This document shows, in pieces, positions 19,691 through 47,584 of a stretch of 64,000 bases of DNA. The DNA is from Liolophura sinensis (Eukaryota > Mollusca > Polyplacophora > Chitonida > Chitonidae). The stretch is from positions 5,047,246 to 5,111,245 of the forward strand of contig NC_088296.1 of the NCBI RefSeq assembly GCF_032854445.1. Reading direction: 5' to 3'. Both the position numbers and the translations under genes were made by a program. The notes beneath the pieces are model-generated. The model was given only the letters and a program-made list of their open reading frames with translations, was not told the DNA's origin and ran no database searches. Within the stretch, counting starts at the first letter, position 1. Every line of letters begins with the position of its first letter.

Positions 19691-19691
19691 G

Positions 19692-19800
19692 GTCACCATG
19701 TACTGGCCGACGACCTTGACCTTTCTTCTCTTGTCTGGATTTATAAGTATGACCTTGACCCAGGAAGACACCCTTCGTCCAGTGATCAGAACATCTAAAG
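19692..19800 (+). CDS. ache-like: Cholinesterase-like exon 1: signal peptide
   Basis: The coding part starts at ATG 19698 in a good initiation context (GTCACCATG) and ends at 19800 before a GT donor, phase 1, after 34 codons. Residues 1-22 form a hydrophobic signal peptide (WPTTLTFLLLSGFIS core), fitting a secreted or surface enzyme. Just upstream, TTTTACCTACACAG looks like a splice acceptor, so the ATG exon is probably preceded by a non-coding exon. The donor (AAAG/GTCGGT) is weak. I accept it because joining to exon 2 restores a G-E-V-Q start of the hydrolase domain. This is the only signal-peptide exon I can find for the three catalytic modules downstream. Confidence 0.82.
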
Positions 19801-19924
19801 GTCGGTTTATTACATAAGTTTTAGTTAGTTTGTTCAATTATCTTATTTTCTCATTCTGTTTTATTTCACATTGTAACCCAGTCTCACATAGATTACTGAG
19901 GTATAATTTTTTCCATACCCATAG

Positions 19925-20123
19925 GTGAAGTGCAGGGTTCCAGAACCTTCATTACAAATCAGCAGATCCCTGTGGACAGGTTCCTGGGGATCCCGTACGC
20001 CCAACCTCCAGTGGGACAGGGCCGATTCAGGCGACCCCTGGAGGCCCAGCCTTGGACCAATATCAGAGACGCCACCCAATATTCATCAGCTTGTTTCCAA
20101 ACCTTTAAGTACACCGGCTTCAG
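19925..20123 (+). CDS. ache-like: Cholinesterase-like exon 2: N-terminal hydrolase fold
   Basis: This 199-nt exon lies between an AG acceptor (CCATAG) and a strong donor (CAG/GTGAGT). It encodes residues 35-101 and ends in phase 2. It carries the family hallmark FLGIPYAQPPVG (about residues 54-65) followed by RFRRP. Cys91 is the expected first half of the conserved N-terminal disulphide loop, with its partner Cys116 in exon 3a. Similarity to acetylcholinesterases continues without a break into the large exon. I found no second copy of this exon between 30.8 and 35.5 kb or between 39.4 and 43.8 kb, so modules b and c either share it or lack an N-terminus. Confidence 0.93.
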
Positions 20124-20393
20124 GTGAGTCCTTAGAGTTCTTGGAATGCTGCATAACACATTACAACACATCATAACACAATGACTTGCAGCTCACACTT
20201 TACAGCGTAAAAATCAAAAGACACCCGTGTATTTTCCTGCTAAAAAAAACCCTTGAAAAAATATTTGAATAAAACACAGATACAGATAGTTTTTCCTTTG
20301 GTAAATGAACACAATTTTGCCAAGCCGTAAAAAATAGCCTCAAAACTGACGCCCATTTCGACAGCTTATTTACCACACTCCAAAAGTAATTTA

Positions 20394-20628
20394 TTAATGT
20401 TAAGAGAGAGTCTGTTGTCCGAGTGATGCTAGAATGTATTCTACCATTATAATGTAATACTGTGTCATATTCAACTCGAAATATACCATTTAAAATATCT
20501 GTGCTACATTTAATAGAGTGAATTGCAGCAATAACAGAATACCATGAGTCAAACAGTAAACTTTCTTTTACATTTAACTGATTATTTTTTGCTATGGAAT
20601 CTGATAACAAAACAGCATTTATCTGTTA
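20394..20628. mobile_element. MITE-like element, diverged copy 3
   Basis: The left end (TTAAGAGAGAGTCTGTTGTC then CGAGTGATGCTAGAATGTAT) matches the inverted right end of the copy at 5107. The right end (AACAGAATACCATGAGTC...ACATTTAAC) is decayed. It lies in intron 2. Confidence 0.5.
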
Positions 20629-23600
20629 CCTTAATAATAATAATAATAATAATAATTCATCTGATCGTAGTTAGCCAATCCAGCTTTATTCCCAAAGTGA
20701 TAAACGTGGAGAAAATTTCTCCATGATATTTTTTTCCTTTTAGATAATGCAGAGCCGGATTCTGGATTGATGTATGCATACCTTCATATGTCTCACATCT
20801 TCAGTAGTTTAAATCAAAGATGAACAAAAAGATATTTTCTGTTTTGTTTTAAGGGAAATTACTTCACGTGAAATGTTTAGTAAAGTGTTTTTCCTTTTCC
20901 CTGGAAGTGAGATATGATTACAATCTTTTTTTTATATATTTGTGTATTTACAATCTGTGTTTTATATCTTCTGTTCTCTGTGTTACACCCGTTAGTATCT
21001 GTTTGTCTGTCTTGTAAAGCAGTCTTTGGATATGTAAGAACCCATGTTTTGTAAAGAAAATGAGAGACAGATAAGTTTCACTTACTGTATTCAATACATC
21101 CATAGTAACTAACTTCCATACGCAATTGTATATCCACACATCTAGATCGATTAACACAGCAGGCATTTTCTTCATATTCATGCTCTTTCTTTGATAAAAT
21201 ATATTCTTTATAGAATATAATAAACCAAAGTATTCTTTCCCCAAAACCAGTGAGCAAGCTAAGCCGTTTGTAAATCTAAGCTGGGTTAAAAGAGTAGGTG
21301 AAAAACCTAATGGCAACAGCAATGATAGCAACTGTCAAGCAACGCTCAAGCTTACTTGGCCAGGAAGAAAGCCGTGCTGATAAGGCACCTATTCCAGCGT
21401 TATATCCACTCTGGTCCAAGCTGTATCGACCAGAGATAACGTTTTGTTGCATTGTATGAATAATACATTAAAAGTTTTGCCTACAAAATATCAGTATGTA
21501 TTGTTTTACTACTTTAGTTAAAAGTAAGGTTCAGTTTGTTGTTCTTGTTTCCTTTCGCTTTCCGACATTTTGAGTGCGAACAAGATGTTAACGTGTTACG
21601 TAATTACGACAACAATGTGACGTTCCAGAGCAAAAACTCGTCGCTTTACGGCATGGTAGGGCCGCTTGACTGTCTGTTGCCATAGATATTCACGAATACA
21701 CAAAGGTAGCGGCATGTTATCGTTATTTTTGCAAATATTTGACACCCAAACCAATCAAAGAACATACATGTAATTGAGGACTTTAATTTAATCGATTTTC
21801 ATTTGAATTCGAAAATATGACAAATATAAACGTATTCACTTGCATGCATTCTGCAATATATAATCTTTTCCCAACCTGTTGTTCTTAGGCTGATGCATGC
21901 CGTCACGTGTTTGTCGTAGTTAAACAATAGCTGCACAACCATGTTTAATTCCCCTGAAGATCACTACACCAAACATGGACTGTAAGAGTGTCACATTGCC
22001 GTACTGTTTCCCTGTGACGTATTTAACTAGCCATCTAATGTAAACATATATTTTATGTATATAACACTCTGATGGTCAGTAACAAACGATCTTATTGTTA
22101 GCTGCCATGGATCGTTCTCATTTGACCACATTGCACAATACTGAAAATTAAATCTGGACGGTTCACATTTTAACATTTTGCTAGAGCAAAATCATATCAT
22201 AATCCTGCAGTATACGCAGACTGTCAATAGCTCCGCACATGCACTCTAACCAATACCATCATCTGTGTTTTTCACCTTTATTATATTTATTTACACCTCT
22301 TATATCAAATTTGCCAAACCCAATGAAAAGACAACTGCATGCGTTTGTGCGATGTCCGTCCATTGATATAGAAGCCATTTGGAGTGTGGATGTCAAAGCC
22401 CCGCACTGTTACAGTAGTTGAAACGTAGTGGTTAATGGATGGTTGAGAGGTGTGGAGTGTTAATTCTCTCGTTAAGAGAAAAGTATGTAGTTTTCAATTG
22501 TCTGTCCCATATTTTACCCTGAGGAATTTTAGCAAAGGGTTGAACGTTTTGAATAACTTATAGCCGTAATTTAACTGTGACCTATTGAAAACCATTTTCG
22601 TCTCCCATTTATCCGCGGACGTGATCATGCGTGGGATAGTTTCTTTTCTTGATCCTTCTTAGACAACAAACACGACTGCAATGCACCAGGAGTTGATGAA
22701 AAAGTATTGCCAAACAGCGGCACATTATTGGATCGTTTATATAAGGTAGGAAGAAATACACATATATAGCTTAGTCAGGAAAGTCTATGAATATAACGTG
22801 AACTTGCTGTACAAGAAAAACTCCGTTTGTAATTTGACAAACGCATAATCTAATTGATCTATACCGTCTACCGGATACTGTTCTGAATCATGAATCTTAT
22901 AAATGCAGTTACTTAGTCACCACAATCTGCCTTACCAGATCTATATTTGAATCTCTTCCAAGATACTTTTAAAACAATTCTAGTGATAATAACATTCACT
23001 AATGAAATGTTTGCAGATTTTTATGCTTTTCGTCCAACGTGTTCACTTTAAAGTCGAATCTACTATTAAAAAGAAAAACCAGTCTGAATTCCAAACGTAA
23101 TCAGCATTACTCTCGTATCACTCCCAACATTCTTTAGAGAAAGAGGACAGCACAAAATCAAGACAATCAGACAAAATCAGTAGACATTACCTCTGAAAAA
23201 CACCTCTATCCCATTTTGTTAAATGGACCACATAAATGTAATCAGATTTGCCAGTCTTTTGTTGAATCTGATGCTCCATGTTAGTAGTGTAAAGCACAAT
23301 GGCACCTCTTCCTTTTTTCACTTAGATAAATATAACCCCATGGCTACATGATTATGGATGTAATTCAAGTTACATATATTCAGGCATGTGAAATTAAATT
23401 TTGATTATAGTAATGAAAAACGATGGGATGCCAATGCGAGTATATTTATTTGTGGTGAGAGAAAATAAGCATATGTGTTTGTATGACTAGGGTTTTCTGG
23501 TCTTCCTTTCTGTGGTTCTTTGATTGTTAAATGATGTTAATTCTTAAGAAGCTTACTTCAAGAAGATGAAATAGTTATACAAAGAACCCCGCTTTAACAG

Positions 23601-24059
23601 TTCAGCAAACAGGAATGAATGAATGGATGGATGATTATGGCTGTACGCCCATATTGGTATTATTTTCCCCAAACCGTGGGTAGCATGTGTAAAACAAGAC
23701 GTAAGAACCCGGATGTTTTGTTTTCCCCGCGTCCTCGGTTGTTGGATTTGTAGGGCGTTTTCCAGGTGACCTGTAAATGATCACGGGGGTTGTCTACTTA
23801 CTGAAGATGGGCTTATTGCACATGATTTTGTAAACACTTGTAAGTATTTGCAACGGTTTTCACATTTTGCATCCGTCTCTTAGTGCTAAATGCAATGCAC
23901 GATGCCTACAGTTCTGTTCCTGACTTGGCGCAGATTTGCTCTTTAACTCTTATTTCACGCTTGCCTTGTTGTAGCACGTTTGGATGACGCATGTCTTCAC
24001 ACTGACGATAGGAGCGTTACTCAGTACTGATTATCTGTACTGATTATCATATTTTAATA

Positions 24060-24290
24060 GAATTTAATAAATAAGTTATATACAATTACATGACAACAAT
24101 ACAAAGGGACCAGACCTCGAGGATTCTTAGTCCAACAGCAGAATCTTGGTTTATACAGGAATACAATATAAAAAGACGTATGGTGTAGAGAACAAAACAA
24201 GAGCAACGAAGGCAGTGTGATAGCTGGCAAATGGTCACACGTATTACCGGTGAAATTTTTGGCCTCTGGTCAATGTATCTTATTTTATTT
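24060..24290 (+). repeat. Dispersed repeat R1
   Basis: Contains the R1 flank (CAATACAAAGGGACCAGACC) and the core (GGCAAATGGTCACACGTATT + ACCGGTGAAA). It lies in intron 2 of the cholinesterase-like locus. Confidence 0.75.
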
Positions 24291-24776
24291 TAGCTGTTAA
24301 TGACAATGCTGTAATAGTAGTAAATTACTCGTCCTCAAGCGCCATGGCTTAAGGGGTGGAAATCATTCCCGGCCTTTGTCTATTTCTAGGTATATTTTAC
24401 TGGTTATCTTTGACAAATAGAGAATGAGAAAAGTTTGCTATCTTGTGCGAGGACATATATGTTGCAAGCATACATTTGTGTCTGTATGGCCAGATTGATT
24501 TAGTGCATACGGCGCGAAGTGCTCCGGGTCGATTCGTTTGATCAAATTATCACAGTTTTAACTAGTACACCTCATCAGACAATGCGTGATACCACATATG
24601 CGGGTTGGCGTTGATCAGCCAACGGAAACTATCCTTTCAGGAAAAAGGGGGATTACTCGTTATACCTATATATAATGTTATTCAAAACTTACACTCTGTA
24701 TGCTTCTTATCACATACGGAGTGTTCAAAATTTTACAGAAGAGATCACTAGATTTCCTTAAAAAAATGAAAGTGAT

Positions 24777-24779
<3 letters not shown>

Positions 24780-24839
<60 letters not shown>
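24780..24839. repeat. (AT)n microsatellite
   Basis: An uninterrupted TA run of about 59 bp in intron 2. Confidence 0.97.
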
Positions 24840-24843
<4 letters not shown>

Positions 24844-26325
24844 TCGACAAGGGCGTCTAAAGGACCACATGCCAGTTGATTAATTATGTTGCACTAATTA
24901 ATTACTATATGTACGCTTTCAATCTCCTTGTTTTGAGTATGAGGACTTAACTCTTCTATACAACCCGGAGATCTCGAGCCCATGGGCGATAACCTAACCA
25001 TATTATGGCTGCCCCTTTGAATTTGAATGTGGTTTATTTCTATTGATATATTTTGTTTGGGATTGCAAATTTCATGCTAACTTTATGCACGATTTTGTTT
25101 TAAATCAGTTAATTCAGTTCAGAACTAAGCAGAAGGTGTATACCTGGTGCATACATTCATCATTTGATTGCAATGCGCGCAGTTTCGCATACTTTTAGAC
25201 AACGTTATGTTTGTTCTCTTTTTCTTTACAACTTGGTAACATCTATGGTGGTAGAAACTCTTCATGTTCTTTAATGTATGCAGACTGATTTGTTCTGATT
25301 CCTGCGCTAACGATTCAATATATTTTAAGCATGGATTGAGAAAAATTCAATATAAACCGAAAAAGGTTTACAGAATCCAGCTCCCAGCTGTCCAGGCAAA
25401 TGCGGGACTGTGCTATTTGACTTGGAACATACTTTATTTCTGTCAATCAATTTTCTTTGGGATTTGTTGATGGGGGAAGCAAGATGAGCATGTGAAGTAC
25501 GGTGTCAAAGGCAATCAAATTACAATGTCATGAATGGTTTCACGTATGGTGTTACTTCAGTAGTTATAGATCAGTTGTACTGTTAGGAGTAACACATTCT
25601 CACATAACATTCACACTATCAGAATTAATCTCTGATCGTGTCCTGCGCACAGGTTCGGAAGCCACATCCTATTATTGTATTGCCTTTGTCTGTGAGTCTT
25701 TCTTGTTTGTTTTTGTTGTATGTTTCAAAACATTTTGTTTTCAGTCTGTTCCTCAGAATATCATGATACCGATATTCAAGTCATGTCAGATTTATTACAT
25801 TAATCAAATTTTGTTTTGGTTTAAAGGGTACATGAAAAGAAAATATAAAACGCAGATTACCTATGAAGGGAAATGTAGAAAGTTATGCCAAAAATCAAAA
25901 CTGAGGCATATTTGATATCTTTAAATAACACACTCCGTTTTATACATGTTTCATCTTTAAATTTTAAAATATGAAACATGCTGGGACTTAAGGAAAACTG
26001 TGGTTTAAAGGAATCCATAACCACCTCCCACCCGAGCTCCCACCAAGTAAAGCGGAGAAGCTTTATTGAACTTTAATATTGTAGGACAAATCATAAATTA
26101 CATATTAAGAAATAAAATCCAAACGATTCATGTATCCTCTAAAGCAAGGATCACGTTTCAATCGAGTTATCCTTGATCAAGGCACTTAGCTACAGCATTG
26201 TTTTACTGAGGACTCACATTTTTCACCACCCATGAACCAAGCCGCCGTGCTATAACTAAAGGTTTCTTATCTTCAGCGCTACACACCAATAAAGTAATAA
26301 ATAAGATTTTTGACGTCTATTTCAG

Positions 26326-27537
26326 AGGGGATGACATGTGGATCCCCACGGTTCCTGTCAGCGAGGATTGTCTGTATCTGAACATCTGGGTCCCCAGAAA
26401 CATCCAGAGACCCATGAGAAAGCTGACCACCCTGGTATGGGTATACGGAGGGGGATTTATATCTGGGTCGTCAGATCTTCAGGTGTACGACGGATCCTTC
26501 ATGGCGGCCACTCACAACGCGATCATTGTATCCATGAACTATCGTGTAGGTCCCTTTGGTTTCCTCAATTTAGGGGTTCCGGAGGCAAGCGGAAACGTAG
26601 GTCTCATGGATCAGTCTTTGGCTCTAAAATGGACTTATCAAAATATCGAGGCTTTCGGGGGGGACCGTAACAAAATAACGCTATTTGGAGAAAGTGCCGG
26701 ATCCGCTAGCGTGAGCTACCATTTGCTGGCTCAGCCGTCGTGGGACTACTTTTCCAACGCCATCATGATGAGTTCTACTGCGCTATGTGATTGGGCGTTC
26801 CAAAAGCCGAGGGAAAGTGTCAAGTATTCTGATATGTACGCAAAGGAACTCGGTTGCGATAGGGATAACGCACAGGAAGTGGTCGAGTGCCTGCGGAAAA
26901 AATCGGCACATGAACTAGCGTCTTTTCAGATGAATCCTTGGCATTTTAAACCCACCGTTGACGGCAGCTTCATCACCAAGTCTCCGGAGGAGCTGATAAG
27001 GAACAAAGATTTCAAGCGCTGTAATATTCTGTTGGGCTTCACAACGGACGAACAAACGTATTTCATGCAACTTTTCGACAGCAAAAAGTTCGACTACAGA
27101 AATTCGGCAGAACCTTCTGTGACTCTGCCAGAAATTAAAAACATCATTAACAGAGTGACACTCTCTACGTCCCCGATTTTTCCCAACACAAGCCTAGCGT
27201 TTGAACATCTGTTGCAAGTTTACGTCAACGGCGTTCCAAAAAAGATACGCGGCACCAACGTCAAGGTGGTTGACAATATCGTTGGTGACCACGATTTTAA
27301 ATGCCCTGTAATTCGATTCGCCAGAGCGTACGCCACAGAAGACCTAGGTGTGTATTTATACCATTTCCATCACCGATCTCCTAACAATCCCTGGCCACAA
27401 TGGATGGGGGTGATCCATGGTTACGAAATCGAATTCGCCTTCGGAATGCCGTACAATGCAAGCGGCGGTTACTCTGTGGAGGACAAGCGGATCAGCGATG
27501 TGCTCATGTCCTACTTGGTGACCTTTGCGTCCACTGG
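26326..27537 (+). CDS. ache-like: Cholinesterase-like exon 3a: catalytic exon, triad intact
   Basis: A 1212-nt exon (acceptor TATTTCAG, donor CTGG/GTACGT) encoding residues 101-505 of a 597-residue protein when joined to exons 1-2, 4a and 5a. The triad is Ser224 (GESAG, codon 26693-26695), Glu343 (TTDEQTYF) and His465 (WMGVIHGYEIEF). Trp106 in the DDMW motif corresponds to the choline-binding Trp84 of Torpedo acetylcholinesterase. The oxyanion glycines are in GGGFISG. Cys116 and the pair Cys278/Cys289 fit the first two family disulphides, and Cys427 should pair with the Cys of exon 4a. The acyl-pocket loop reads NPWHF instead of the two-Phe vertebrate pattern, so substrate preference may be broader. 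It is a likely choline-ester hydrolase; whether it is the neural enzyme is unknown. Confidence 0.95.
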
Positions 27538-28551
27538 GTACGTAACTGTTTTTGTTTTTCTATGTTGTGCAACTTTTCAGTCATATGAGGATGAGAAGAT
27601 CGTTGGGTATATGTAAATATACTACGTCTTCTTGTGACAGGGCGAATCTATTCCGCCAATGGGCTGCCGCCACTTATGGATCATGTCGAAGACACTAGCC
27701 ACATTATACTGATATCGGACCAATCAATCATGTTTCGTGGCTCAGCAAGACAGCAACAAGTTCAATTTTTAAAGTCGTTGGTATGATCCAACCCGGGTTT
27801 GACAGCTTTAAAATCCTTGGTGACAATAAGCGATCGACGACACTATTGTGTCCGATTTTGCGGTCAAATGTTCGTTGACTACTTGTCTTACATCAATTGT
27901 CTTACATCAAAAGTTCGTCTGTAAGTTGCAAAAGGTCGGTGGTTTACACCGGACATTCCGGATTTCTCTACCCATAAAACAGCCCCTCGATAGTATGAAA
28001 AATTTTGAGTATGGCGTTAATCAACAATGAAGTAAATAAATAAATACGTATATTTTCTCGAAACAGTATTTCCGTTTGTACGCAGCGAAAGTCGTGTGAA
28101 ATTTGTGAAAAGTCACTAAAAACAAAAATTGCTTTCTGCGCTGAAAGCTTTGGGAATGGGCCTTTAGGGGCTGGTGTAAATGTGTTTTATTGCTTACGTC
28201 AAAGTGCGAAAACGACATCGGTTCTTCTTACCCTTTCGGGAATAAATTTTCTTGGTGTATACAGTTTGCTACAGTTATGCCGTACTGACAGGCACTGGGA
28301 ACTCGCTGGGTCAGATGGCTGAATGCGAACAGTGAGGTCGCGACTTCGAATTCTGCTATCGCTGTTTCCACTGCGGCTTTAAGTGAAAAGGTTTGTTAGG
28401 TACCTGACGGAGGCCGAAGGTTTTCTATGTGAACTTTGATTTCCTCCACCCATAAACCTGATTGCCGTCAAATAAGTGAAACGCCAATCAAATAAATAAA
28501 TAAATAAATATATAAACATATCAAACTGTTAATTTTTATTTTTGCTCACAG
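27538..28551 (+). other. Intron 3a with SINE-related insertions
   Basis: GTACGT...CTCACAG, 1014 bp. At about 27575-27725 it has a family-B-related segment (TCTTCTTGTGACAGGGCGAA) that recurs at 51490-51690. At about 27925-28045 is a SINE-like tail, and at 28296-28511 a diverged SINE-A. Confidence 0.65.
28296..28511 (+). repeat. SINE family A, strongly diverged copy
   Basis: The head GAACTCGCTGGGTCAGATGG, B-box-like ACTTCGAATTCTG and the ending AAACGCCAATCAAATAAATA keep the family order, but the middle is poorly conserved. Confidence 0.6.
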
Positions 28552-28718
28552 GAACCCGAACAGTCAGACCTTCGGAGAAAGAATGTGGCCGAATTTTACA
28601 GAATCTGACGAGAGTTACAAAATCATTCAATCTGGTTTGTTAGAAACAAAACAGTACCCCAGATATGCGCAGTGTTCGTTTTGGGAGGACTTCTTACCTG
28701 TCTTAGAGAAGCAGTCTG
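28552..28718 (+). CDS. ache-like: Cholinesterase-like exon 4a
   Basis: A 167-nt exon (acceptor GCTCACAG, donor CTG/GTGAGT). It completes the Gly begun in exon 3a and continues NPNSQTFGERMWPNF, the segment that follows 'TFASTG' in cholinesterases. It carries the conserved QCSFW Cys, expected to pair with Cys427. An N-glycosylation sequon (NFT) follows MWP. The exon ends in phase 1. Size and phases equal exons 4b and 4c. Confidence 0.93.
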
Positions 28719-28839
28719 GTGAGTCAGTGGTTAAGAAGACTGATGTATCGTGGTCTGCTATCCGTGATATGTAGTGGTCTGAATCGACCTTTGGCTTTTA
28801 CGAAGATGTTGTAATTTAAGCCATGGTGTTATGGGCGGG

Positions 28840-29035
28840 GGCGGGGTGAGGGTGGGGGACGTGCAATTTGCTACTTAGTAAGCATTTACACGAACAGTTA
28901 GAATAAAACCCTAACTGAGGTAAATTGACAAGAGACCGTATCTCACCGGTTACGTGTGGCCATTTGCCAACTAGCACACTGTTGTCTGTGCTTTGGAATT
29001 ACTCTCTATACTGTAAGCCTTTTATTACAATGTAC
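28840..29035 (-). repeat. Dispersed repeat R1
   Basis: Plus-strand words GCATTTACACGAACAGTTAG, then CTCACCGGTTACGTGTGGCC and CTCTATACTGTAAG. The core lies on the minus strand. Confidence 0.8.
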
Positions 29036-29484
29036 TTCTAAACGTTCATGAACGAGCCTTAGGCTCAAGTCAAACTTATTCTTAACTTTAAAATAGTCTA
29101 CTGCGCCAAACATAGTCAATGTTGATTGCCGTCATAACTCCGTGTTTGTAGCGCTAAGATGGCTTCCTACATTTGGCGCTGCACCCTGGTATTCCATTGC
29201 GTTTCTATATAACCGTGTTACTAAAAGCATTATCGATAACATGTATTGCGTCGGTAGGGAGGGTTATCTAACCACAAAACTAACTTTATGTAATGTACCA
29301 TTAGCTCGACTTAACTGGCCTTAATGCGCTCCAGGAGGGCCGATGCTGCTGTTATATCCCAATACTTTTAGGCAAGACGTGAGTCTGAATTTATGTTATA
29401 TATACAAGACGAGTTACCGTTCTTGTTGAAAACACTCATCGACAGATATAGGTTTGGACAGTTGATAAACTATAATAAAATCTT

Positions 29485-30620: not shown

Positions 30621-30687
30621 ACATTGTAATTGATTAAAGAATGAAATGGGCCTTAGTTTTACACGAATGGTTTGTTTACGGTTTCAG

Positions 30688-30800
30688 AATCAACGGCTCT
30701 GGCTATCGCACGGTGTACCGGAAGTCGGGATGGAGCGACTTTTCTCAGTGTTATGATATTAGCAGCATTTTCTGTTTTGATAGCATCAAAACATGAATAG
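30688..30800 (+). CDS. ache-like: Cholinesterase-like exon 5a: membrane or GPI-anchor tail and stop
   Basis: A terminal coding exon of 113 nt (acceptor GGTTTCAG) ending TAG. It encodes ESTALAIARCTGSRDG, then the hydrophobic stretch ATFLSVMILAAFSVLIA and the short polar end SKHE. This layout fits the GPI-addition signal of 'H-type' acetylcholinesterases, with the Cys in ARC suited to dimer formation. A transmembrane anchor with a four-residue tail is the alternative. Exons 5b and 5c have the same length and layout. Confidence 0.88.
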
Positions 30801-30808
30801 AAAAGGCT

Positions 30809-35110: not shown

Positions 35111-35501
35111 TGACATGCGCGCAAACAGAAGGTTTAACATAATACATCCAATAATCAATCTATTGGCTTAATCATTACGAAGTAGAACTCTTCTGAAAAT
35201 GAAGGCAAAAAAAATTATTGACTGGTATATTTCCCATTTGTACACATTGCTATTATATACAAGTGAAAATTGGCGTACGATCGTAACTCTAAAAAAAACT
35301 GCAACCAGCTTACAATTTCGGTGTATAAGCGGCGTAAGTTATTTTTTCGATCAGTTCTATCAAGTGAGTTGAACTCATTTGTATGTTCTCACAATCCATG
35401 AACATATGCACAGTAGGCGATATCAGCGTGAACACTTTCCATATTTATGCTAAGATCCCGGATACATGACATTTAGACTTATGTCTGTTGCCGTGTTTCA
35501 G

Positions 35502-36710
35502 AGGGCATGATATGTGGAATCCCACCGTTCCCGTCAGCGAGGATTGTTTGTATTTGAACGTCTGGGTCCCCAGAAATATCCAGACACAAATGACAAAACT
35601 CACAACAATGGTCTGGATTTACGGAGGAGGTTTTTCATCCGGGTCCTCCGATCCTGACGTTTTCGAAGGATCCTTCGTTGCGGCCACTCACAACGCTATC
35701 GTTGTATCAATGAATTACCGTGTTGGCCCCTTCGGTTTCCTCAACTTGGGGATTCCTGAGGCAAGTGGGAATGTAGGTCTCATGGATCAATCATTGGCTT
35801 TGAAATGGACTTATGAAAATATCGAGGCCTTTGGAGGGGACCGCAACAAAATAACAATATTTGGAGAGGGCGGAGGATCCGCTTGCGTGAGTTACCATTT
35901 GCTGGCTCAACCGTCGTGGGACTATTTTTCCAACGCCATTATGATGAGTGGCACGGCTTTGTGCACATGGGCGTTCCAGTCGCCAAAGAAAAGTGTGAAA
36001 AATGCCAAAATGTACGCAAAAGAAGCTGGATGTGATTCGGAAGATGCAAAGGAAATCGTGACATGCCTTCGTCAAAAAACTCCAGATGAGCTAACTTCTT
36101 TCGCACTGGACTTGCTGTTTTTCAAACCCACCGTTGATGGCAGCTTCATCACCAAATCTCCAGAGAAATTACTCAAGTCTAAAGATTTCAAGCGCTGTAA
36201 CATTTTATTGGGCTACACGTCAAACGAACAATCTTTTTTCATGTCATTACTAGACAAGAGGTTCGGCCGAACCAATACCGACGAACCACTTGTGTCCGTT
36301 CCAGAAATTAGAAACCTAGTTAACAAAGTTACTCTGGCCGACTCCCCGATAATAACCAACTCAAGTCTAGCTTACGACCACCTCATGCAAGTTTATGTCC
36401 ACGGCATTCCCAGAAAGCGACGCGATTCCAATTTCAAAGTGCTTGAAGCTATGGTTGGTGACCACGACTTTAAATGTCCTATAATTCAACTCGCAAGAGC
36501 GTATGCCGCCGAGGATCTTGGCGTTTTCTTATATCGTTTCCATCACACATCTTCTACCAGCCCCTGGCCAGAGTGGATGGGAGTGATGCACGGATACGAT
36601 GTCGAGTTCGTGTTCGGAATGCCGTACAATAGTAGTGGGGGTTTCTCTGCCGAGGATAAGCGGGTCAGCAATATGCTCTTGTCGTACTGGGTAACCTTTG
36701 CCAGCACTGG
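35502..36710 (+). CDS. ache-like: Cholinesterase-like exon 3b: catalytic exon lacking the nucleophile Ser
   Basis: A 1209-nt exon (acceptor TGTTTCAG, donor CTGG/GTAAGA), open throughout. It starts and ends in the same phases as 3a. The choline-site Trp (HDMWNP), GGGFSSG, the Glu (SNEQSFF) and the His (WMGVMHGYDVEF) are present. The nucleophile elbow reads GEGGG instead of GESAG: codon 35869-35871 is GGC (Gly), and the next residue, which donates an oxyanion-hole NH in the family, is also Gly. The predicted product should not hydrolyse esters by the usual route. The open frame and preserved splice sites suggest a ligand-binding or adhesion-type cholinesterase-like protein rather than a decayed gene, though recent inactivation is possible. 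There is no private signal-peptide exon. Confidence 0.92.
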
Positions 36711-36948
36711 GTAAGAATCATTGTCATAATCACTTTATTTCGTGGCGAACCATTGGCTATGAAAAATTTAAAAGCATTAAGCATATTGACAAATTTAATA
36801 CTGAAGAAAGTCATCATGATCTCTGAGCTCTGAGATTTGTTGTGCTTTATTGTTCATTAACCTTACCGCAGTCATATTGATTAAAAACTCAATAAAATGG
36901 CATTAAAAACCAATCAAATAACTATAAAATTTTTTTAATTTTCTACAG
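36711..36948 (+). other. Intron 3b
   Basis: GTAAGA...TTCTACAG, 238 bp, AT-rich. Its first ~50 bp are almost identical to intron 3c, and its last ~110 bp are clearly related. It lacks the SINE insertions that lengthen 3c. Confidence 0.85.
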
Positions 36949-37115
36949 AAATCCAAACATGGAGAAGTCCGGTGTCAGAATGTGGCGCAAATTTACGGAA
37001 TCTGACCAGGAGTACACAGTCATCAAGTCTGGCCAGATGGAAACAAAACAGTATCCCAGATTCACACAATGTTCTTTTTGGACGGATTTCGTACCTGTGT
37101 TAGAAAATCATACAG
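36949..37115 (+). CDS. ache-like: Cholinesterase-like exon 4b
   Basis: A 167-nt exon (acceptor TTCTACAG, donor ACAG/GTGAGT). It reads NPNMEKSGVRMWRKF and keeps the QCSFW Cys. It ends ENHTG, which creates an N-glycosylation sequon (NHT) absent from exon 4a. Same phases as 4a and 4c. Confidence 0.92.
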
Positions 37116-37321
37116 GTGAGTAATTCGAGGATAGATAATTAGTATCGCACGAATAAATGATTAGTCTTGCGCCATACTGGAACTATTCCAGCAATACAGT
37201 TGCAACACTATGTGTGTGAACGGCCGGAGTTCAACCCTAAGCCGCGTCACGTTTAATACTTTGCATATACTATATAGACTTCTTCACTGAAACAATAAAC
37301 GTGGTGTTGGGGGCGTTGGGA

Positions 37322-37340
37322 GGGGGGGGGGGGGGGGGGG
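37322..37340 (+). repeat. Uninterrupted run of 19 G
   Basis: A poly-G run on the sense strand of intron 4b, about 200 nt after the donor, preceded by GGGGGCGTTGGGA. It could form a G-quadruplex in the transcript. Confidence 0.9.
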
Positions 37341-37519
37341 TAGTGACTGGATGAGGGGACATTGCTGTCGAGTCACCAAAAGGGTGACTTTGTCATTATT
37401 GTTTGCTGTCAGATGTGCGATGTTCTTGACATTGTTATTCAATTTGTGTCCTGTTTTATTTCTCTACAGTATGCTATATGTCGCGTCTTTATCTATCTTC
37501 CAATGCTGTAAAAGGATGT

Positions 37520-38945
37520 ATTTTTCATTGTTGTAATAGTGTGGTATATATGGTGTATTTCTCATTGTTGTTCAGTGTCGTATGTATGGTGTCTTTACGG
37601 TTGTTGTCAAGTCTCGTATGTATGGTGTCTTTGCGGTTGTTGTCAAGTCTCGTATGTACGGTATCTTTGTCACTGTGGTTCAATGTTGTCTTTGTCACTG
37701 TGGTTCAATGTTGTTTGTATTGTGTCTTTGTCATTGTTGTTCAGTTTCGTATGTATGGTGTCTTTGTTATTGTTGTTCAGTGTGGTATACATGGAATCCT
37801 TGTAATTGTTGTTCATTGTCCTATGTATGTAGTGTTTGTCAGTGTTGTGCAGTGTCCTATATATGTAGTCTTTGCCAGTGTTGCGCAGTGTCCTATGTAT
37901 GTAGTCATGCCCGTGTTGTGCAGTGTCCTATGTATGTAGTCTTTGCCAGTGTTGCGCAGTGTCTTATGTATGTAGTCTTTGCCAGTGTTGCGCAGTGTGC
38001 TATGCATGTAGTCTTGCCAGTGTTGTGCAGTGTCCTATGTATGTAGTCTTGCCAGTGTTGTGCAGTGTCCTATGTATATAGTCTTTGTCAGTGTTGTGCA
38101 GCGTCCTATGCATGTAGTCTTTGTCAGTGTTGTGCAGTGTCCTATGTATGTAGTCTTTGTCAGTGTTGTGCAGGGTCCTATGTATGTAGTCTTGCCAGTG
38201 TTGTGTAGTGCTCTATGTATGTAGTCTTGCCAGTGTTGTGCAGTGTCCTATGCATGTAGTCTTGTCAGTGTTGTGCAGCGTCCTATGTATGTTGCCTTTG
38301 TCAGTGTTGTGCAGTGTCCTATGTATGTAATCTTTGTCAGTGTTGTGCAGTGTCCTATGTATGTAGTCTTTGTCAGTGTTGTGTAGTGTCCTATGTATGT
38401 AGTCTTTGCCAGTGTTGTGCAGGGTCCTATGTATGTAGTCTTTGTCAGTGTTGTGCAGTGTCCTATGTATGTAGTCTTTGTCAGTGTGGTGCAGTGTCCT
38501 ATGTATGTAATCTTTGTCAGTGTTGTGCAGGGTCCTATGTATGTAGTCTTTGTCAGTGTTGTGCAGGGTCCTATGTATGTAATCATTGTCAGTGTTGTGC
38601 AGGGTCCTATGTATGTAATCTTTGTCAGTGTTGTGCAGTGTCCTATGTATGTAATCTTTGCCAGTGTTGTGCAGGGTCCTATGTATGTAGTCTTTGCCAG
38701 TGTTGTGCAGTGTCCTATGTATGTAGTCTTTGCCAGTGTTGTGCAGTGTCCTATGTATGTAGTCTTTGTCAGTGTTGTGCAGTGTCCTATGGATGTAGTC
38801 TTTGCCAGTGTTGTGCAGCGTCCTGTGTATGTAGTCTTGTCAGTGTTGTGCAGTGTCCTATGTATGTAGTGTTTGTCAGTGCTGCGCAGTGTCCTATGTC
38901 CTATGTATGTTGTGTATGTTTCATTGTTGTTTAGTCTCGTGTGTA
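37520..38945. repeat. 36-bp minisatellite (~39 units) in intron 4b
   Basis: Unit: TGTTGTGCAGTGTCCTATGT, ATGTAGTCTTTGTCAG. The first ~10 units are more diverged (TGTCGTATGTATGGTGTC type), while the later ones are nearly uniform, as expected if expansion occurred toward the 3' side. The 36-bp period gives long open frames on both strands (up to 206 codons) that are not genes. The same starting motif is present, barely expanded, in intron 4c. Confidence 0.95.
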
Positions 38946-39236
38946 TGTTTCAAAGTCGTATTTATTTAGACTTATTTATTTGATTGGTGTTATACGCCCT
39001 ATAGGAACTCTATATAGATTTCTCCATGTTGGCTTCACATACAATTCTGTGAGCGAATAGCAGGGGGATAGAATTGTGCATTTTAACGTTTAATAAAATC
39101 TCCGCAAGACATTCTTTTGAGTAGCATAGTTTGTTTTATTGAGTAGTTTTACAGCTCATCAAGAGAAAATAAATTAAAAATGTTTTTCCAGGATTCTTTT
39201 CATTTTAAATTACATGGATCTCATATTTTTTTGTAG

Positions 39237-39349
39237 AATCTACGGCTCTTGCGTTAGCACGTTGTGCAGGGACGCGGACTGGTGCAGCTGTCCTCAGTGT
39301 TCTATTATCAGTCATGTTATCCGCCATAATAGCCTCCAGAAATGGATGA
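39237..39349 (+). CDS. ache-like: Cholinesterase-like exon 5b: membrane or GPI-anchor tail and stop
   Basis: 113 nt, acceptor TTTTTGTAG, stop TGA 39347-39349. It encodes ESTALALARCAGTRTG, the hydrophobic stretch AAVLSVLLSVMLSAIIA and the end SRNG. Layout equals exon 5a. The minus-strand open frame over this region is a shadow. Confidence 0.88.
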
Positions 39350-39407
39350 AAACATCTTCCGGCGTTTTCACTGGTACCTTGTCCCACCGCTTGATGAGAT
39401 GCGTGCG

Positions 39408-39413
39408 AATAAA
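39408..39413 (+). promoter_or_regulatory. Probable polyadenylation signal, module b
   Basis: AATAAA 59 nt after the stop codon, at the same place as in module c. It suggests that each module makes its own 3' end. Confidence 0.6.
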
Positions 39414-40859
39414 CAGTTGGTTGTAGAGGTGGGAATGTTAATCAACGGCTTCAACTGCCAAGTCTGTGGATGTAAAATAGAATGAGTAACATCAAGAATA
39501 AACAGAAAAAGATTTTCGGTATTCAGTAATTTCTAAACGCTGATGGTATTGTCCATAAAGCCCACCTTACAATTTAAACGTTTGGACGCCTTGAACTAAA
39601 AAATAAATTAAAGAAAATAAATGTATTTTTATTGCATTTTTCTGCAAAGTGTCAAGCACTTTACCTTGTGATGCCTACTTGCATTTTCAGTGGTCTTTTT
39701 CTTTCAGGTAACAATATTCTACGTCAACGATGAGATGTCAATTTTTCGTGCATGCTGTGCTGTTTGGTTTGAGCGTTAATGCCATAGAGAATTAACGTAT
39801 TTCCATGCTTTAATACACCTGAGAAGGTGATCATGTTTTAATAAAATTTCTGTAATAATGTAGAGTTCTGTTATTTATTATTTACATTTCCTGAAATCGC
39901 AGGATAATAATAACAATATGAAACAAATGGTTGTTATTTCTTAAAAGGGAGTATGGCTATATAATATGGCCTAATATATAGGAAATCAAAAAAGCTTCTC
40001 GGTTTTCTTCAGGTGTAGAAAATGGCTTTGAAGTACAGATTTCCTGTGGACCCAGCAGTCAGTCCGGAAATGAAAACAACTCTGTTTTGAGTACAGCCCG
40101 AACTGGGAGCGATAAGCTGTATGTTAATCGTTGACTTCACTTACGAATATTTCCAGCCATTGGCATAAAACATGCCCAAAAAGGAGGGGCTATTAAAATA
40201 TATAGATCATGCCTCAGAAATGGATTTTTTTCATGTATTTTATGCACAATTAATCTATCTATAAATATCTATTCATATTTAATATGAACAAAATATATAA
40301 AATAATTCTCATCTTTAATGTAATCATATACGATATATATTCATTTAAAAGATATTTGATACAAAAATACCAGTAGAAAGATCCAACATTTTGGCCATGC
40401 AGCACGCAAAGCATTTATAACCCTACGTTTACGCTTTATCTAGCGTTGACACTAAACGTAACACTTACAGGAATGCTCTGAAACACTTGTAATCCTTGTG
40501 TTCCACTATATGAATGTTGAAAATAATTGGTAATGGACTTAGAAAAGCATTTATACATTTTCTAAAATGTTAACACTGCATTTAACACTTTACAAAATGG
40601 TTTGAAAGTGTTGCAATCTAAAATTATTCTATATCAGGTTAATACTTTTAAGTGCTGTGTTCCGTTTCATAAATGTTAAAAATCTTGCAATGTGACGTCA
40701 TGTTACAAGGAGTAACTAGTCACCACGTTGCGTAACATTTTAAAGTGTTAGTACTCTTAATTTACAGCATGTTAAAAAAAGCATCGTTTTAACACTTACA
40801 AAGTTCCCCTAATCTAAGTTTTGCGTTTTAAGATAATGAGTAGACTGATACTCCGGAAA

Positions 40860-41000: not shown

Positions 41001-42579
41001 ATTATTGTATTATTATAGTATTATATTATTTTGTATATAACACCTGTGTGTTCCATCGTAGACTTAACTTATACTGAAGCAAGTCTGTACCCGTCATAGC
41101 GCAAGCACCGCTCTCTTCTCTCATTTAACATCACTGTCAGCAACTAGCTAACTTTGTACGGAAATGTTTTGACAAGGTCAAGGTCATTGGGGTAGGAAAA
41201 CACTTTATCTTTGTTACCCCTCACACTTGATAGATGTGTATTGCCTTTCATTTAGCCGATACAGAACATGATAACTAGAGGGACGTGCAGTGTTTGTATT
41301 GATGATTGTTTGAGTGATAACATAAGCGTGAGACTAAGCCTTAACCAGCTCATATGCGTTATGCAGCGTAGAAAAGTCAAACATCGTCAAGCAGCTGCCA
41401 TGTTGTGGTTCAAAAACAGGCGCAATCATCGGGTAATGCACAGTCCCTGTACGTTTTTCTCACAAAACACTACAACAATAGTCATAACCTCTTTTAAGGA
41501 GTTCAAATTCAATGTTTTTCCTTGTGTACTGTGTTCGTCTTTCCTTGTGTTGTTTTCTTTATTTTTGGCACGACCTGTGCTATACTCCCTTGAGATGAAC
41601 ATTTTCATAAACAGGTGACTTACACAATACATACTGGAGATGATTAACTTCATAACTAGCTGACTTACACGATACACCCTGGAGACGGATATTTTCAAAT
41701 CTACCCTTGTACCCGTGAAGGTAACCATGTTTCCTCTACTCACCAGAGAGACGGAATTCCTCTATCAAACCGTATTTAAACTGTACTTCACACATGAGAA
41801 AATTCGGCGGTTTATTCCAGGTGCCCAGGTTTCCTCCAGGTACCCAGGTTTCCTACAGATACCCCGGTTTATTTCCCCACCCATTTTCCTCTACCTGTGA
41901 AACTGATCACTGCTGTATAAGTGAAATATGCATGAGTGTGATGTTAAACGTCAATCTACCAATTAATACTTACAAACTAGCACCGGGTACGTCTTATCCG
42001 GGCACAGTACGGCGGCCAATAAAAACTGTCCATGATACTGTTACTAGAGATACGATTGCTGAATAGGTGATCATGAACGCGAAACCGTACCCGCCTAAAC
42101 GAACGCGAGCATAAACTGTACAAGCTATTGGTCATCCCTGCATTCGTGATGACGATTTGTGGACAGTACACGTGTATTAAAAGAGAACACTAGTGAATCC
42201 GGAATGAGCCTGGGTCGCCATAGGCGGGAAATGGCACCTCATTATTTTGTCTTATTTTTGGGCCATGCTTAAATAGTTTCCACACCTCTCATTATTGACA
42301 TTCCACATTTGCTTTGTTTCCTCTTAAACTGAAAGAAAATTAAATAAGACTCAGTCGGACCACAGAAAAATTAAAAAGTTATAAATATATTGAAAACTTT
42401 TTCATCAATTTTAAAGGGCGCTAAAACATTCAAATGTTTAAACTCTACGGTAGGCTTTATCAAGACGAGTGTTTATGTGGGTGAATATAATGCTAAAAAG
42501 GTGGTGTGACGACAGATTACCTTGCCATTACCTTTGGAATTCATAAAACACTTTTGATTGCACAGTTGAATTGATTTAA

Positions 42580-42870
42580 TATAATTAAAGACGTACAGTA
42601 GAGAGTAAAACCAGAGCAGGAAAAACAGTGTGGCAGGTGAAATACGGTCTCTTTTCAGTTTATCTCCGTCAGGGCTTTATTGTAACTGTTGATGTAAATT
42701 CATAAAGAGTAGCAATTTACATGCCCCCTAACACATGGCTTAAGCAATGAAGTTAATTGCAATATATTAGACTTCACCAGTTTAGAATTACTCAAAATGC
42801 TGTGTTGTCATCACATTTAACATAAATGCATTTCAAGAAATATAAAAATACGAATAAATTCACTATTGCA
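42580..42870 (+). repeat. Dispersed repeat R1
   Basis: ATTAAAGACGTACAGTAGAG, TAAAACCAGAGCAGGAAAAA, a core shortened to CAGGTGAAATACGGTCTC, then CTCCGTCAGGGCTTTATTGT and ACTCAAAATGCTGTGTTGTC. Confidence 0.8.
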
Positions 42871-43475: not shown

Positions 43476-43873
43476 ACAAGATCGACTCAAATTAACGTTA
43501 GATACAAATCCTTGATTTAAGCAGACTGTTAGCGTGTTATTTTCGACTCAGGCTGCAAACACGTGCAATTCAATTGTGCCAGAAGGTCGCTGCGAATTGT
43601 GTTGTTGGCTGCTGAAACAATATAACGTAGATGAAGACAACAAAAATATGCTGACTGGTAGATTTCCCATTTGGACCAGTCGAAGTTGACGCATGTAATC
43701 TCTTACAGTTCCTTTGTGCAAACGGCGTGACTTATTTTTACGATCAATTGTGAACTCAGTAGTAGTCAGAAGTACATATACACTGTACAAGATGTAAGCA
43801 TGAACACTTTCCATATTTATAGCCTGATCCCTGATACCTAATATTTAGAGTTATGTCTGTTGCTGTATTTCAG

Positions 43874-45082
43874 AGGGGAAGACATGTGGAATCCCACCGT
43901 TCCTGTCAGCGAAGATTGTCTGTACCTGAACGTCTGGGTCCCCAGAAATATCCAGAAAGCCATGAGGAAACTCACAACAATGGTCTGGATTCATGGAGGA
44001 GGTTTTACATCTGGGTCCACCGATCTTGACGTCTACGACGGATCCTTCGTCGCGGCCACTCACAACACTATCGTTGTATCGATGAATTACCGTGTTGGCC
44101 CCTTCGGTTTCCTCAACTTGGGGATTCCTGAGGCAAGTGGGAATGTAGGTCTCATGGATCAATCATTGGCTTTGAAATGGACTTATGAAAATATCGAGAC
44201 CTTTGGAGGGGACCGCAACAAAATAACAATATTTGGAGAAAGCGCAGGAGGCGCTAGCGTGAGTTACCATTTGCTGGCTCAACCGTCGTGGGACTATTTT
44301 TCCAACGCCATTATGATGAGTGGCACGGCTTTGTGCACATGGGCGTTCCAGTCGCCAAGGAAAAGTGTGAAAAATGCCAAAGCGTACGCAAAAGAAGCCG
44401 AATGTGATTCGGAAGATGCAAAGGAAATCGTGACATGCCTTCGTCAAAAAACTCCAGATGAGCTCATTTCTTTCGCACCAAACATGTTGTATTTTAGGCC
44501 CACCGTTGATGGCAGCTTCATCACCAAATCTCCAGAGAAATTACTCAAGTCTCAAGATTTCAAGCGCTGTAACATTTTATTGGGCTTCACGTCAAACGAA
44601 CAATCCTATTTCATGTCAACATCAGACAAGAGGTTCGGCCGAACCAATACCGACGAACCCCCTGTGTCCGTTCCAGAAATTAGAAACCTAGTTAACAAAG
44701 TTACTCTGGCAGACTCCCCGATAATAACCAACTCAAGTCTAGCTTACGACCACCTCATGCAAGTTTATGTCCACGGCATTCCCAGAAAGCGACGCGATTC
44801 CAATTTCAAAGTGCTTGAAGCTATGGTTGGTGACCACGACTTTAAATGTCCTATAATTCAACTCGCAAGAGCGTATGCTGCAGAGGATCTTGGCGTTTTC
44901 TTATATCGTTTCCATCACACATCTTCTACCAGCCCCTGGCCAGAGTGGATGGGAGTGATGCACGGATACGATGTCGAGTTCGTGTTCGGAATGCCGTACA
45001 ATAGTAGTGGGGGTTTCTCTGCCGAGGATAAGCGGGTCAGCAATGTGCTCTTGTCGTACTGGGTAACCTTTGCCAGCACCGG
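43874..45082 (+). CDS. ache-like: Cholinesterase-like exon 3c: catalytic exon, triad intact
   Basis: A 1209-nt exon (acceptor GTATTTCAG, donor CCGG/GTAAGA) in the same phases as 3a and 3b. The elbow is GESAGGAS (Ser codon 44241-44243), the Glu is in SNEQSYF and the His in WMGVMHGYDVEF. The choline-site Trp is in EDMWNP and the oxyanion motif is GGGFTSG. The acyl loop reads NMLYF, versus DLLFF in 3b and NPWHF in 3a. From about 44070 to the donor it is nearly identical to 3b except at gorge loops, while the first ~200 bp differ more. It encodes a likely active ester hydrolase. With exons 1-2, 4c and 5c the product would be 596 residues. Confidence 0.94.
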
Positions 45083-45304
45083 GTAAGAATCATTGTCATA
45101 ATCACTTTATTTCGTGGCGAACCACTGGCTATGAAGAATGCAGCGTAAATTTAAATTTTCTCTTCAAGCATTAATATTGTGTTGGTTTGTTTCTTCGCTT
45201 TCGCTATCTGCAAGTGCATCCATAATGCAAAAATGGTACCTTTACCTCGGAACTCTTTCTGGTCATACAAGTGCCTATAATATACGATTTATCTATATAT
45301 GTAC

Positions 45305-45566
45305 GGGGGCCTTCGTGGCTCAGTTGGTTAGCACGCTAGCGCGGCGTACTAACTCAGAAACCTCTCACAATTGCCTTCGCTGTAAGTTCGAGTCCAGCTC
45401 ATGCTGGATTTTTCTCCGGCCGTACGTGGAAAGGTCTGCAGGAACCTGCGGATGGTCGTGGGTTTCGCCCGGGCTCTGCCGGGTTTCCTCCCACCATAAC
45501 GCTGGCCGCCTTGGTGTAAGTGAAATATCCTTGAGTACGGCGTAAAACACCAGTCAAATAAATAAA
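45305..45566 (+). mobile_element. SINE family A, full-length reference copy
   Basis: A complete tRNA-derived SINE. Head GGGGCCTTCGTGGCTCAGTT + GGTTAGC with an A-box (TGGCTCAGTTGG), B-box-like GTTCGAGTCCA, body words GTACGTGGAAAGGTCTGCAG and CTGCCGGGTTTCCTCCCACC, end GAGTACGGCGTAAAACACCA and tail AAATAAATAAA. Being absent from intron 3b, it was inserted after the b/c duplication or lost from b. Confidence 0.92.
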
Positions 45567-46202
45567 GACATGTATATATTTACGTCTTGTGATATATTAT
45601 TTACCTCCTTGTACTTTGACCTGCCGCGTTCATTTTTTTGGGGGGGGGGGAGCAAGTGACAGACGAAAAAAAAGTGACAGCTGAATTTTAGCTTTGGATA
45701 CATATTGAGAAATTTAGTGCTGAAGAAAATCATCATGATCTGAAAGTAATTCTGAATTCTTGTTACCTCTGATTATACGCAAATATTTTAACAGAACATA
45801 TAGTCGTAGTGTACACAAATATAATTCACTCATCCGGTCGGACACCATCCAAGCTTTGACCGTCTTGATTTTGTTCTTTTCTTTCCGAACGTTGTCGAGA
45901 GCAGACGACTAGAAATGGTGGTTAGCACAGTTTATGGATGCGGTTTGTACATTTGTGTTGTGACGCAGAAATGATCTGCATTATTCACAATTTTTGAGGT
46001 GATATGAAGTCAAAGTTTCTATCGGGTTAAAGTAAATATGTTTTGTGGTGCACAACAATGACATGCTGAGGACAGCACACTTGAAAGAAACGAGTTGTAG
46101 GTGAGCGAATGGAAGAGTACAGATCTGTACCCTGATGATTAATTTCAATTCGGTCGAAGTCCTTTTGTATATCACTTATCCTCCACTGTTTGATTTTTTT
46201 TT

Positions 46203-46455
46203 TTGATTGGTGTTTTACGCCGTACTCAAGAATATTTCACTTATACGACGGCGGCCAGCATTATGGTGGGTGGAAACCGGGCACAGCCCGGGGAAAACCC
46301 ATGACCATCCGCAGGTTGCTGGCAGACCTTCCGACGTACGGCCGGAGAGGAAGGAAGCATGAACTGGTCTTGAACTCACAGCGACCGCATTGGTGAGAGG
46401 CTTCTGGGTCACTACGCTGCGCTAGCGCGCTAACCGACTGAGCCACGGAGGCCCC
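46203..46455 (-). mobile_element. SINE family A, full-length copy in inverse orientation
   Basis: A complete copy on the minus strand, from GGGGCCTCCGTGGCTCAGTC (end at 46455) to the TTGATTGGTGTTTTACGCCG end at 46203, with a T-rich tail at 46190. It pairs as an inverted repeat with the copy at 45305. Confidence 0.92.
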
Positions 46456-46648
46456 TTCCACTGTTTGAGACTTCAGCGATAGACCAGAATCGAATGACAT
46501 AGTTACTGCTTCTGTGAACGTCTGATATATGAGTTTAATTTGGTTTCCACCATTCATTAACCTTACCACGGTCGTACTGGTCAAAAGCTAATTAAAATGG
46601 TATTAAAAACCAATCAAATGACTACAGAAAGTTTTTATTTTTCTACAG

Positions 46649-46815
46649 AAATCCAAACATGGAAAAGTCGGGGGTCAGAGTGTGGCCCAAATTTACGGAA
46701 TCTGACCAGAAATATAAAGTCATCAAGTCTGGCCAACTGGAAACAAAACAGTATCCCAGATTCACACAGTGTTCTTTTTGGACGGATTTCGTACCTGTGT
46801 TAGAAAGTCATACAG
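46649..46815 (+). CDS. ache-like: Cholinesterase-like exon 4c
   Basis: 167 nt, acceptor TTCTACAG, donor ACAG/GTGAGT. It reads NPNMEKSGVRVWPKF and keeps the QCSFW Cys. It ends ESHTG and so lacks the sequon seen in 4b. It differs from 4b at several residues (KYK for EYT, QLE for QME). Confidence 0.92.
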
Positions 46816-47471
46816 GTGAGTAATTCGAGGATATAGTATTCGCTTTGCATGAATAAATGATTAGTCTTACGCCATATTGGCGTCTTGTCATTGTTGTAAT
46901 AGTGCTGTATGTATGGAGTCTTTTTCATGTTGTAATAGTGCCGTCTGTGTTGTGTATATTTCTTCGTTGTCCAGTGTCGTATGTATGGTGTCAATGTAAT
47001 TGTTGTTCATTCTCGCATGTATGTAATCTTTCTCATTGTTGTTCATTGTCGTGTATATGTAACCTTTCTCTTCGTTGTTCATTGTCGTATGTATGTAATC
47101 TTTCTCATTGTTGTTCGGTGTCGTCTGTTGTGTGTGGTATGTTTCACTAATGTTCAGTGTCTTTTGTATGGCTCAGAGTCGTGTTTATTTATTTAGTTAC
47201 TTATTTAATGATTTATTTGATTGGTCTTATACGCCGCGTGGGAACTATATACATATTTCTGTATGTCAACTCCACATTCAGGTGTGTGGGAGAATACTAT
47301 AGGAATAGGATTGTGCCCCTTACTATTTAATAAAATGTCTACAGGATATCTTTTTGAGTAGCATAGGTTTTTTACTGAACAATTTTACAGCTCATCAAGA
47401 GAAAATAAATTAAAAATGTTTTTTCCAGGATTCTTTCCATTTTAAAGTACAAGATCTCAAATTTTTTGCAG
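46816..47471 (+). other. Intron 4c with a short, unexpanded repeat
   Basis: GTGAGT...TTTTGCAG, 656 bp. At 46880-47170 it carries about eight diverged units (GTCGTATGTATGTAATCTTT type) related to the early part of the array in intron 4b. Confidence 0.8.
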
Positions 47472-47584
47472 AATCTACAGCTCTAGCATTAGCACGTTGT
47501 GCAGGGACGCGGACTGGTGTAGCTGTCTTCAGTGTTCTATTATCAGTCATGTTATCCGCCATAATAGCCTCCAGAAATGGATGA
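47472..47584 (+). CDS. ache-like: Cholinesterase-like exon 5c: membrane or GPI-anchor tail and stop
   Basis: 113 nt, acceptor TTTTTTGCAG, stop TGA 47582-47584. It encodes ESTALALARCAGTRTG, VAVFSVLLSVMLSAIIA and SRNG. It differs from 5b at only two residues (A/V, L/F). Confidence 0.88.

Follow-up and report, generated by a model that had tools for sequence, protein, structure and literature searches.

We analysed a 64,000-nucleotide stretch of the genome of the chiton Liolophura sinensis (the window), corresponding to C2:5047246-5111245 of a 609,464,459-base assembly in 632 contigs. The species was first published as Liolophura japonica, with RNA-seq of five tissues (digestive gland, foot, gill, gonad and heart; PMC11068029); its authors later renamed it L. 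sinensis (PMC12441733). The window carries one pair of N-terminal exons, followed on the same strand by three sets of catalytic exons, here named cassettes a, b and c.

Anatomy of the locus

The features of the gene, with the evidence that placed each of them, are as follows.

19698..19800, + strand: exon 1 from the ATG, 103 nt; signal-peptide-like hydrophobic N-terminus, sole copy in the assembly (sequence, splice sites, hydrophobicity)
19925..20123, + strand: exon 2, 199 nt; opening part of the carboxylesterase fold (PF00135 positions 12-69), sole copy (Pfam, splice sites)
26326..27537, + strand: exon 3a, 1212 nt; bulk of the catalytic domain (PF00135 positions 80-471), FGESAGS (splice sites, Pfam)
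28552..28718, + strand: exon 4a, 167 nt (tblastn, splice sites)
30688..30800, + strand: exon 5a, 113 nt; hydrophobic C-terminal tail, TAG stop (DNA match, spliced frame, hydrophobicity)
35502..36710, + strand: exon 3b, 1209 nt; PF00135 positions 79-471, FGEGGGS, catalytic serine replaced (splice sites, homology, Pfam)
36949..37115, + strand: exon 4b, 167 nt (tblastn, splice sites)
39237..39349, + strand: exon 5b, 113 nt; hydrophobic tail, TGA stop (DNA match, splice sites, hydrophobicity)
39408..39413, + strand: AATAAA of cassette b (sequence)
43874..45082, + strand: exon 3c, 1209 nt; PF00135 positions 79-471, FGESAGG, serine kept (splice sites, homology, Pfam)
46649..46815, + strand: exon 4c, 167 nt (tblastn, splice sites)
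47472..47584, + strand: exon 5c, 113 nt; hydrophobic tail, TGA stop (DNA match, splice sites, hydrophobicity)
47643..47648, + strand: AATAAA of cassette c (sequence)

Exons 1 and 2 together measure 302 nt, so that exon 2 ends in phase 2, at a single and strong donor (CAG/GTGAGT, the slash marking the splice site). Exons 3a, 3b and 3c all begin after phase 2, every intron of the locus is bounded by GT-AG, and joining exons 1-2 to exons 3, 4 and 5 of a, b or c yields a spliced translation without an internal stop. The single 5' module is in frame with every cassette, as in a gene with shared 5' exons and alternative 3' cassettes. A sequence-only reading of this DNA had described three same-strand sets of exons 3-4-5 after phase 2, with a 167-nt exon 4, a 113-nt exon 5 and separate stops, and this description is confirmed to the base; its claim that exon 2 is frame-compatible with 3a, 3b and 3c is upheld by the uninterrupted translations.

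As shown by Pfam comparison, exons 2, 3a, 3b and 3c all belong to the COesterase family (PF00135; E-values 3.2e-19, 3.7e-110, 3.2e-112 and 7.8e-115, respectively). Given that exon 2 matches positions 12-69 of the profile and exon 3 positions 79/80-471, the two parts are complementary. In the window, exon 3 of b and c is 72% identical in protein to that of a, and exon 4 is 62-65% identical (tblastn). The match of exons 3b and 3c to exon 3a (E <1e-200) indicates that the likeness is not due to chance. Genome-wide, b and c (72%) are the only close relatives of exon 3a, and identity drops to 40% for the match ranked after them (75 of 75 candidates scored).

The N-terminus encoded by exon 1 has a hydropathy of 1.8, and the C-terminal tails of a, b and c average 2.6-2.7 over 15 residues. 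The matching AATAAA that had been noted for b and c was found 58 nt past the stop in each. Within 400 nt of the stop of cassette a there is no AATAAA, only TTTAAA and AATATA variants; its first AATAAA lies about 624 nt past the stop, inside a repeat tail. Directly 5' of the start codon, the sequence at 19680-19700 (TTTTACCTACACAG/GTCACCATG) resembles a splice acceptor. Its AG at 19690-19691 means that exon 1 may start at 19692, and a non-coding first exon could lie farther upstream.

Search for another N-terminus

We evaluated at three levels whether a second N-terminus exists. A search of the whole assembly with the exon 1-2 protein (E up to 10; 38 of 38 candidates scored) revealed no second copy. 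Two of the 38 matches are this locus and the best other is 35% identical; the highest identity elsewhere, 52%, extends over 27 residues only. A family profile built from 12 paralogues, with this gene excluded, scores exon 2 at 61 bits (4e-17); no other match exceeds 9 bits (E 0.64) among 8851 stop-to-stop pieces from both strands of the window and 50 kb on either side (164 kb). At the DNA level there was no convincing remnant of exons 1-2, the best blastn piece (E 0.016) falling in intron sequence of the query. The same DNA approach with nhmmer recovers exons 4b and 4c from 4a (E ~1e-21) and exons 5b and 5c from 5a (E 5.5e-9 and 2.2e-7). The claim that exons 1-2 occur once is borne out by tblastn in the window, by the assembly search and by the family profile, and the search of the flanks for other copies that had been proposed with it returned none in 164 kb or in the assembly.

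As a genome control we took all 87 Pfam matches together with the 38 exon 1-2 protein matches, and considered hits covering PF00135 positions 165-180. The Pfam genome search gave at least 87 matches, with 84 of 140 candidates scored; among those listed for C2 between 4.9 and 5.3 Mb there are one N-terminal and three catalytic matches, all in the window. At least 45 genome hits cover positions 165-180 among the matches listed. In 21 of these 45 the N-terminus is part of the same hit, and in 19, including cassette a, it forms a hit of its own upstream, with no intervening hit of this kind. Three (C7:34668126, C3:13423804 and C1:60488660) have no N-terminal hit within 150 kb. Of the 45, only b and c stand behind other cassettes of one N-terminus. 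The esterase-domain hit at C1:60488660 falls within a stretch interrupted by several stops and resembles a relic.

The duplicated unit and selection on b and c

Cassettes b and c are joined by a tandem duplication that extends beyond their exons.

35309..39478, + strand: b copy of the tandemly duplicated unit; c copy at ~43702-47713 (blastn pieces, limits set against shuffles)

The blastn pieces pair 35309-36767 with 43702-45139 (92%), 36853-37180 with 46553-46880 (88%) and 38680-39478 with 46908-47713 (81%). Measured against shuffles, the likeness may extend upstream to ~35.2 kb and ends downstream at ~39.5 kb. The b unit takes in exons 3-5 together with ~0.2-0.3 kb of the preceding intron, which holds the acceptor, and ~0.13 kb downstream of the stop, which holds the first poly(A) signal. 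This is close to the minimum that would be workable as an alternative terminal cassette. Between a and b or c, the alignment in unique sequence covers the exons and a few flanking bases only.

Several repeats lie in the same intervals. A regulatory element 5' of each exon 3 (24161-24324, 34561-34729 and 42578-42824) was considered and rejected, as these stretches are copies of a dispersed repeat, with at least 40 genome matches (all 40 scored matched, from 5134 first-look candidates). The repeat is found at 24161-24324, 34561-34732, 34934-35112 and 42578-42824, and it accounts for the b/c likeness at 34.5-35.1 kb. The copies near b and c share only 69% identity with each other, and copies elsewhere in the genome match that of b at 86-90%, so the two are independent insertions. 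Minisatellites occur at 29404-30131 (81 bp, intron 4a), 33869-34453 (45 bp, between a and b) and 37584-38945 (36 bp, intron 4b), the 81-bp array sharing part of the dispersed repeat. Intron 4c carries a SINE-like element twice (45310-45580 and 46210-46460), ending in AATAAATAAA and, by eye, in opposite orientation. A tRNA scan in its bacterial setting returned none.

The substitution pattern in the cassettes was evaluated by a simple counting method that ignores transition bias and tends to understate omega. By this method a-b gives dS 1.05, dN 0.18 and omega 0.175, and a-c an omega of 0.172, both at a dS of about 1 that is near saturation; b-c gives dS 0.119, dN 0.041 and omega 0.34. The b-c comparison counts 36 silent changes to 46 replacements, where neutrality predicts ~1:3.5, and neutral evolution is rejected (p=8.5e-6). 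With a used to polarise the changes, 12 silent and 21 replacement changes fall on branch b (p=0.043) and 14 and 21 on branch c (p=0.013); both tests are weak, and 14 b/c changes remain unpolarised. In sets of 1000 neutral simulations, 3% retain an open frame at 0.06 substitutions per site and none does at 0.5.

Constraint is not uniform along the cassette. In codons 100-200 the b-c omega is 0.95 (3 silent, 11 replacement), and exon 3 of b (35502-36710) and c (43874-45082) forms a mosaic in which blocks of 98-100% identity stand beside blocks of 86-94%. This unevenness (86 to 100 of 100 sites per block) suggests gene conversion, which may inflate the apparent constraint. With that reservation, b and c look constrained as cassettes lacking an N-terminus. 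Purifying selection since the two separated means that they are translated, and translation in turn calls for an N-terminus; given that the carboxylesterase fold needs its first strands, the sole N-terminus found is the likely donor.

Predicted products, mechanism and related systems

The protein predicted from exons 1-2 and cassette c matches acetylcholinesterases of known structure along its entire length (best E 2e-132), and 71 distinct structure-entry sequences match it at E up to 1e-100. The nucleophile elbow reads FGESAG in a and c and FGEGGG in b (serine codon position 35869-35871), with two further changes, A to G and S to C, close by. In a and c the serine of GESAG, the Glu of DEQ/NEQ and the His of HGY stand at the human AChE columns, c having been aligned to a structure entry and a placed through the a/b/c alignment, and the oxyanion GGGF is kept. 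Cassettes a and c have the Ser-Glu-His triad and oxyanion motif of an active serine cholinesterase, and b lacks the nucleophile serine. Having lost it (GESAG to GEGGG), b is predicted to lack serine-esterase activity, and from their residues at most a and c would be classical esterases, with putative activities as cholinesterase-like hydrolases.

Two further features connect the cassettes to the front end. The cysteine of the SEDC motif in exon 3 is kept in b and c, and its pairing partner by homology (alignment to human AChE) is encoded in exon 2, which supports a shared exon 2. The choline-site Trp is also present in this alignment; we take the pair to be the Cys69-Cys96 disulphide and the tryptophan to be Trp86, names that come from the vertebrate enzymes. 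The hydrophobic C-terminal tails of b and c, which probably direct GPI anchoring, would be of use only with a signal peptide, and this supports a shared N-terminus.

These data allow us to propose, with reasonable though not full confidence, one shared 5' end with three alternative terminal cassettes as the best reading of the locus. Exons 1-2 would form the single promoter-side module, supplying the signal peptide and first carboxylesterase strands. Each cassette would bring an acceptor, the remainder of the catalytic domain, a stop and a hydrophobic tail that probably directs GPI anchoring, and b and c a poly(A) signal as well. Splicing of the single exon 2 donor to one of the three exons 3, combined with alternative poly(A) sites, would give cholinesterase-like hydrolases from a and c and a serine-less cholinesterase-like protein from b. 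The phases would also permit mixed cassettes, such as 3a with 4b. From the arrangement of exons we infer use of the junctions 20123-35502 and 20123-43874. Order, strand, phase and splice sites make cis-splicing of exon 2 to all three cassettes possible, and cis rather than trans splicing is the likely route. Skipping cassette a would require transcription past its 3' end, and the absence of AATAAA within 400 nt of its stop is suggestive, and only that, of read-through. Against a shared 5' end, the nearest cassette would have to be skipped over introns of 15-24 kb, and the serine loss in b is what a decaying copy might show. Starts at an internal ATG in 3b or 3c are unlikely, as they would forfeit the signal peptide and first strands; the reading frames around 3b and 3c contain no Met 5' of the DMW motif.

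An incomplete tandem duplication that left a as the only gene, with b and c dead or decaying, would account for the lack of N-terminal exons in b and c, for the serine lost from b and for the relaxed b-c change in codons 100-200. We nevertheless regard it as unlikely: in both cassettes the frames are open, the splice sites canonical and a poly(A) signal present, the b-c changes reject neutrality, and the omega of ~0.17 to a, albeit at near-saturated dS, accompanies frames that no neutral simulation kept open at 0.5 substitutions per site. It is quite improbable that b and c have private N-terminal exons that went unseen, whether because the assembly lost them, because they collapsed within repeat arrays, or because they have diverged too far. 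The intervals do hold minisatellites of 36, 45 and 81 bp, where assemblers err, and the reads of the assembly average 8.3 kb at 14x (PMC11068029), yet there is no N in the window or in ten 10-kb flanks. The profile and genome searches recover paralogue N-termini at 30-52% identity and none here, and the DNA search that recovers 4b, 4c, 5b and 5c finds no convincing exon 1-2.

Trans-splicing, in which promoters specific to b and c would drive pre-mRNAs that are then joined to exon 2 of a separate transcript, would give the same end product from the same anatomy. It has a precedent in mod(mdg4) (PMC12692577), and exon 2 is far from b and c; cassettes in order on one strand mean that cis-splicing suffices, and we consider this route very improbable. 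The N-terminus searches, the selection analysis and the shape of the duplicated unit weaken the two explanations that the sequence-only reading had set against its own, incomplete duplication and unseen private exons. The same results leave its "one start" standing, while "three enzymes" fails because b has lost its catalytic serine.

On the favoured reading of a shared 5' end, one cholinesterase promoter with a three-way cassette choice might exchange some four fifths of the protein. The result would be two surface esterases and a serine-less look-alike, which might be a built-in decoy or serve in ligand binding or adhesion. All three would share the N-terminus and probably the type of anchor, although we put this forward tentatively and would not be surprised to see it fail. 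If transcripts confirm the arrangement, most of the catalytic domain of an animal cholinesterase, and not the tail alone, would be exchanged by choice of terminal cassette. Partial tandem duplications would thereby have a route to being useful at once, the copy borrowing promoter, signal peptide and first exons. The chiton locus would make it testable how an active enzyme and a serine-less relative can arise from one transcription unit. Gene predictors would split or truncate loci of this type.

The locus is real, unusual and known from one genome, and in the open-licence literature searched we found no printed account of a cholinesterase with such a structure. It resembles animal acetylcholinesterase and cholinesterase genes (COesterase, PF00135) in fold, triad positions and choline-site Trp. 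In vertebrate ACHE, splicing varies the C-terminus. The catalytic domain of the animal genes is constant and only a short tail varies, whereas in the chiton the variable part would take in most of that domain. UGT1A-type loci, with a variable first exon and shared 3' exons, likewise combine one constant with several variable parts, and are the mirror image of the chiton locus. The class I (Delta) GST gene of Anopheles reportedly has one N-terminal exon and alternative exons for the catalytic part, giving several enzymes per gene (Ranson et al. in 1998 are said to have described it). It shares with the chiton locus one N-terminal part and alternative catalytic parts; the GSTs are cytosolic with one alternative exon each, in contrast to a predicted secreted esterase with three-exon cassettes that include the tail. 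As stated in PMC2999413, Delta GSTs of A. gambiae exist as splice variants. In Drosophila, mod(mdg4) and lola join common constitutive 5' exons to one of many alternative 3' exons (PMC12692577). The chiton locus is like them in its common 5' exons and alternative 3' parts; mod(mdg4) differs in trans-splicing, in encoding transcription-factor C-termini and in using partly opposite strands, whereas the chiton has three cassettes on the same strand that carry most of an esterase domain. The principle is known from mod(mdg4), lola and mosquito GST, and the new element would be the exchange of some four fifths of a cholinesterase, including a serine-less version.
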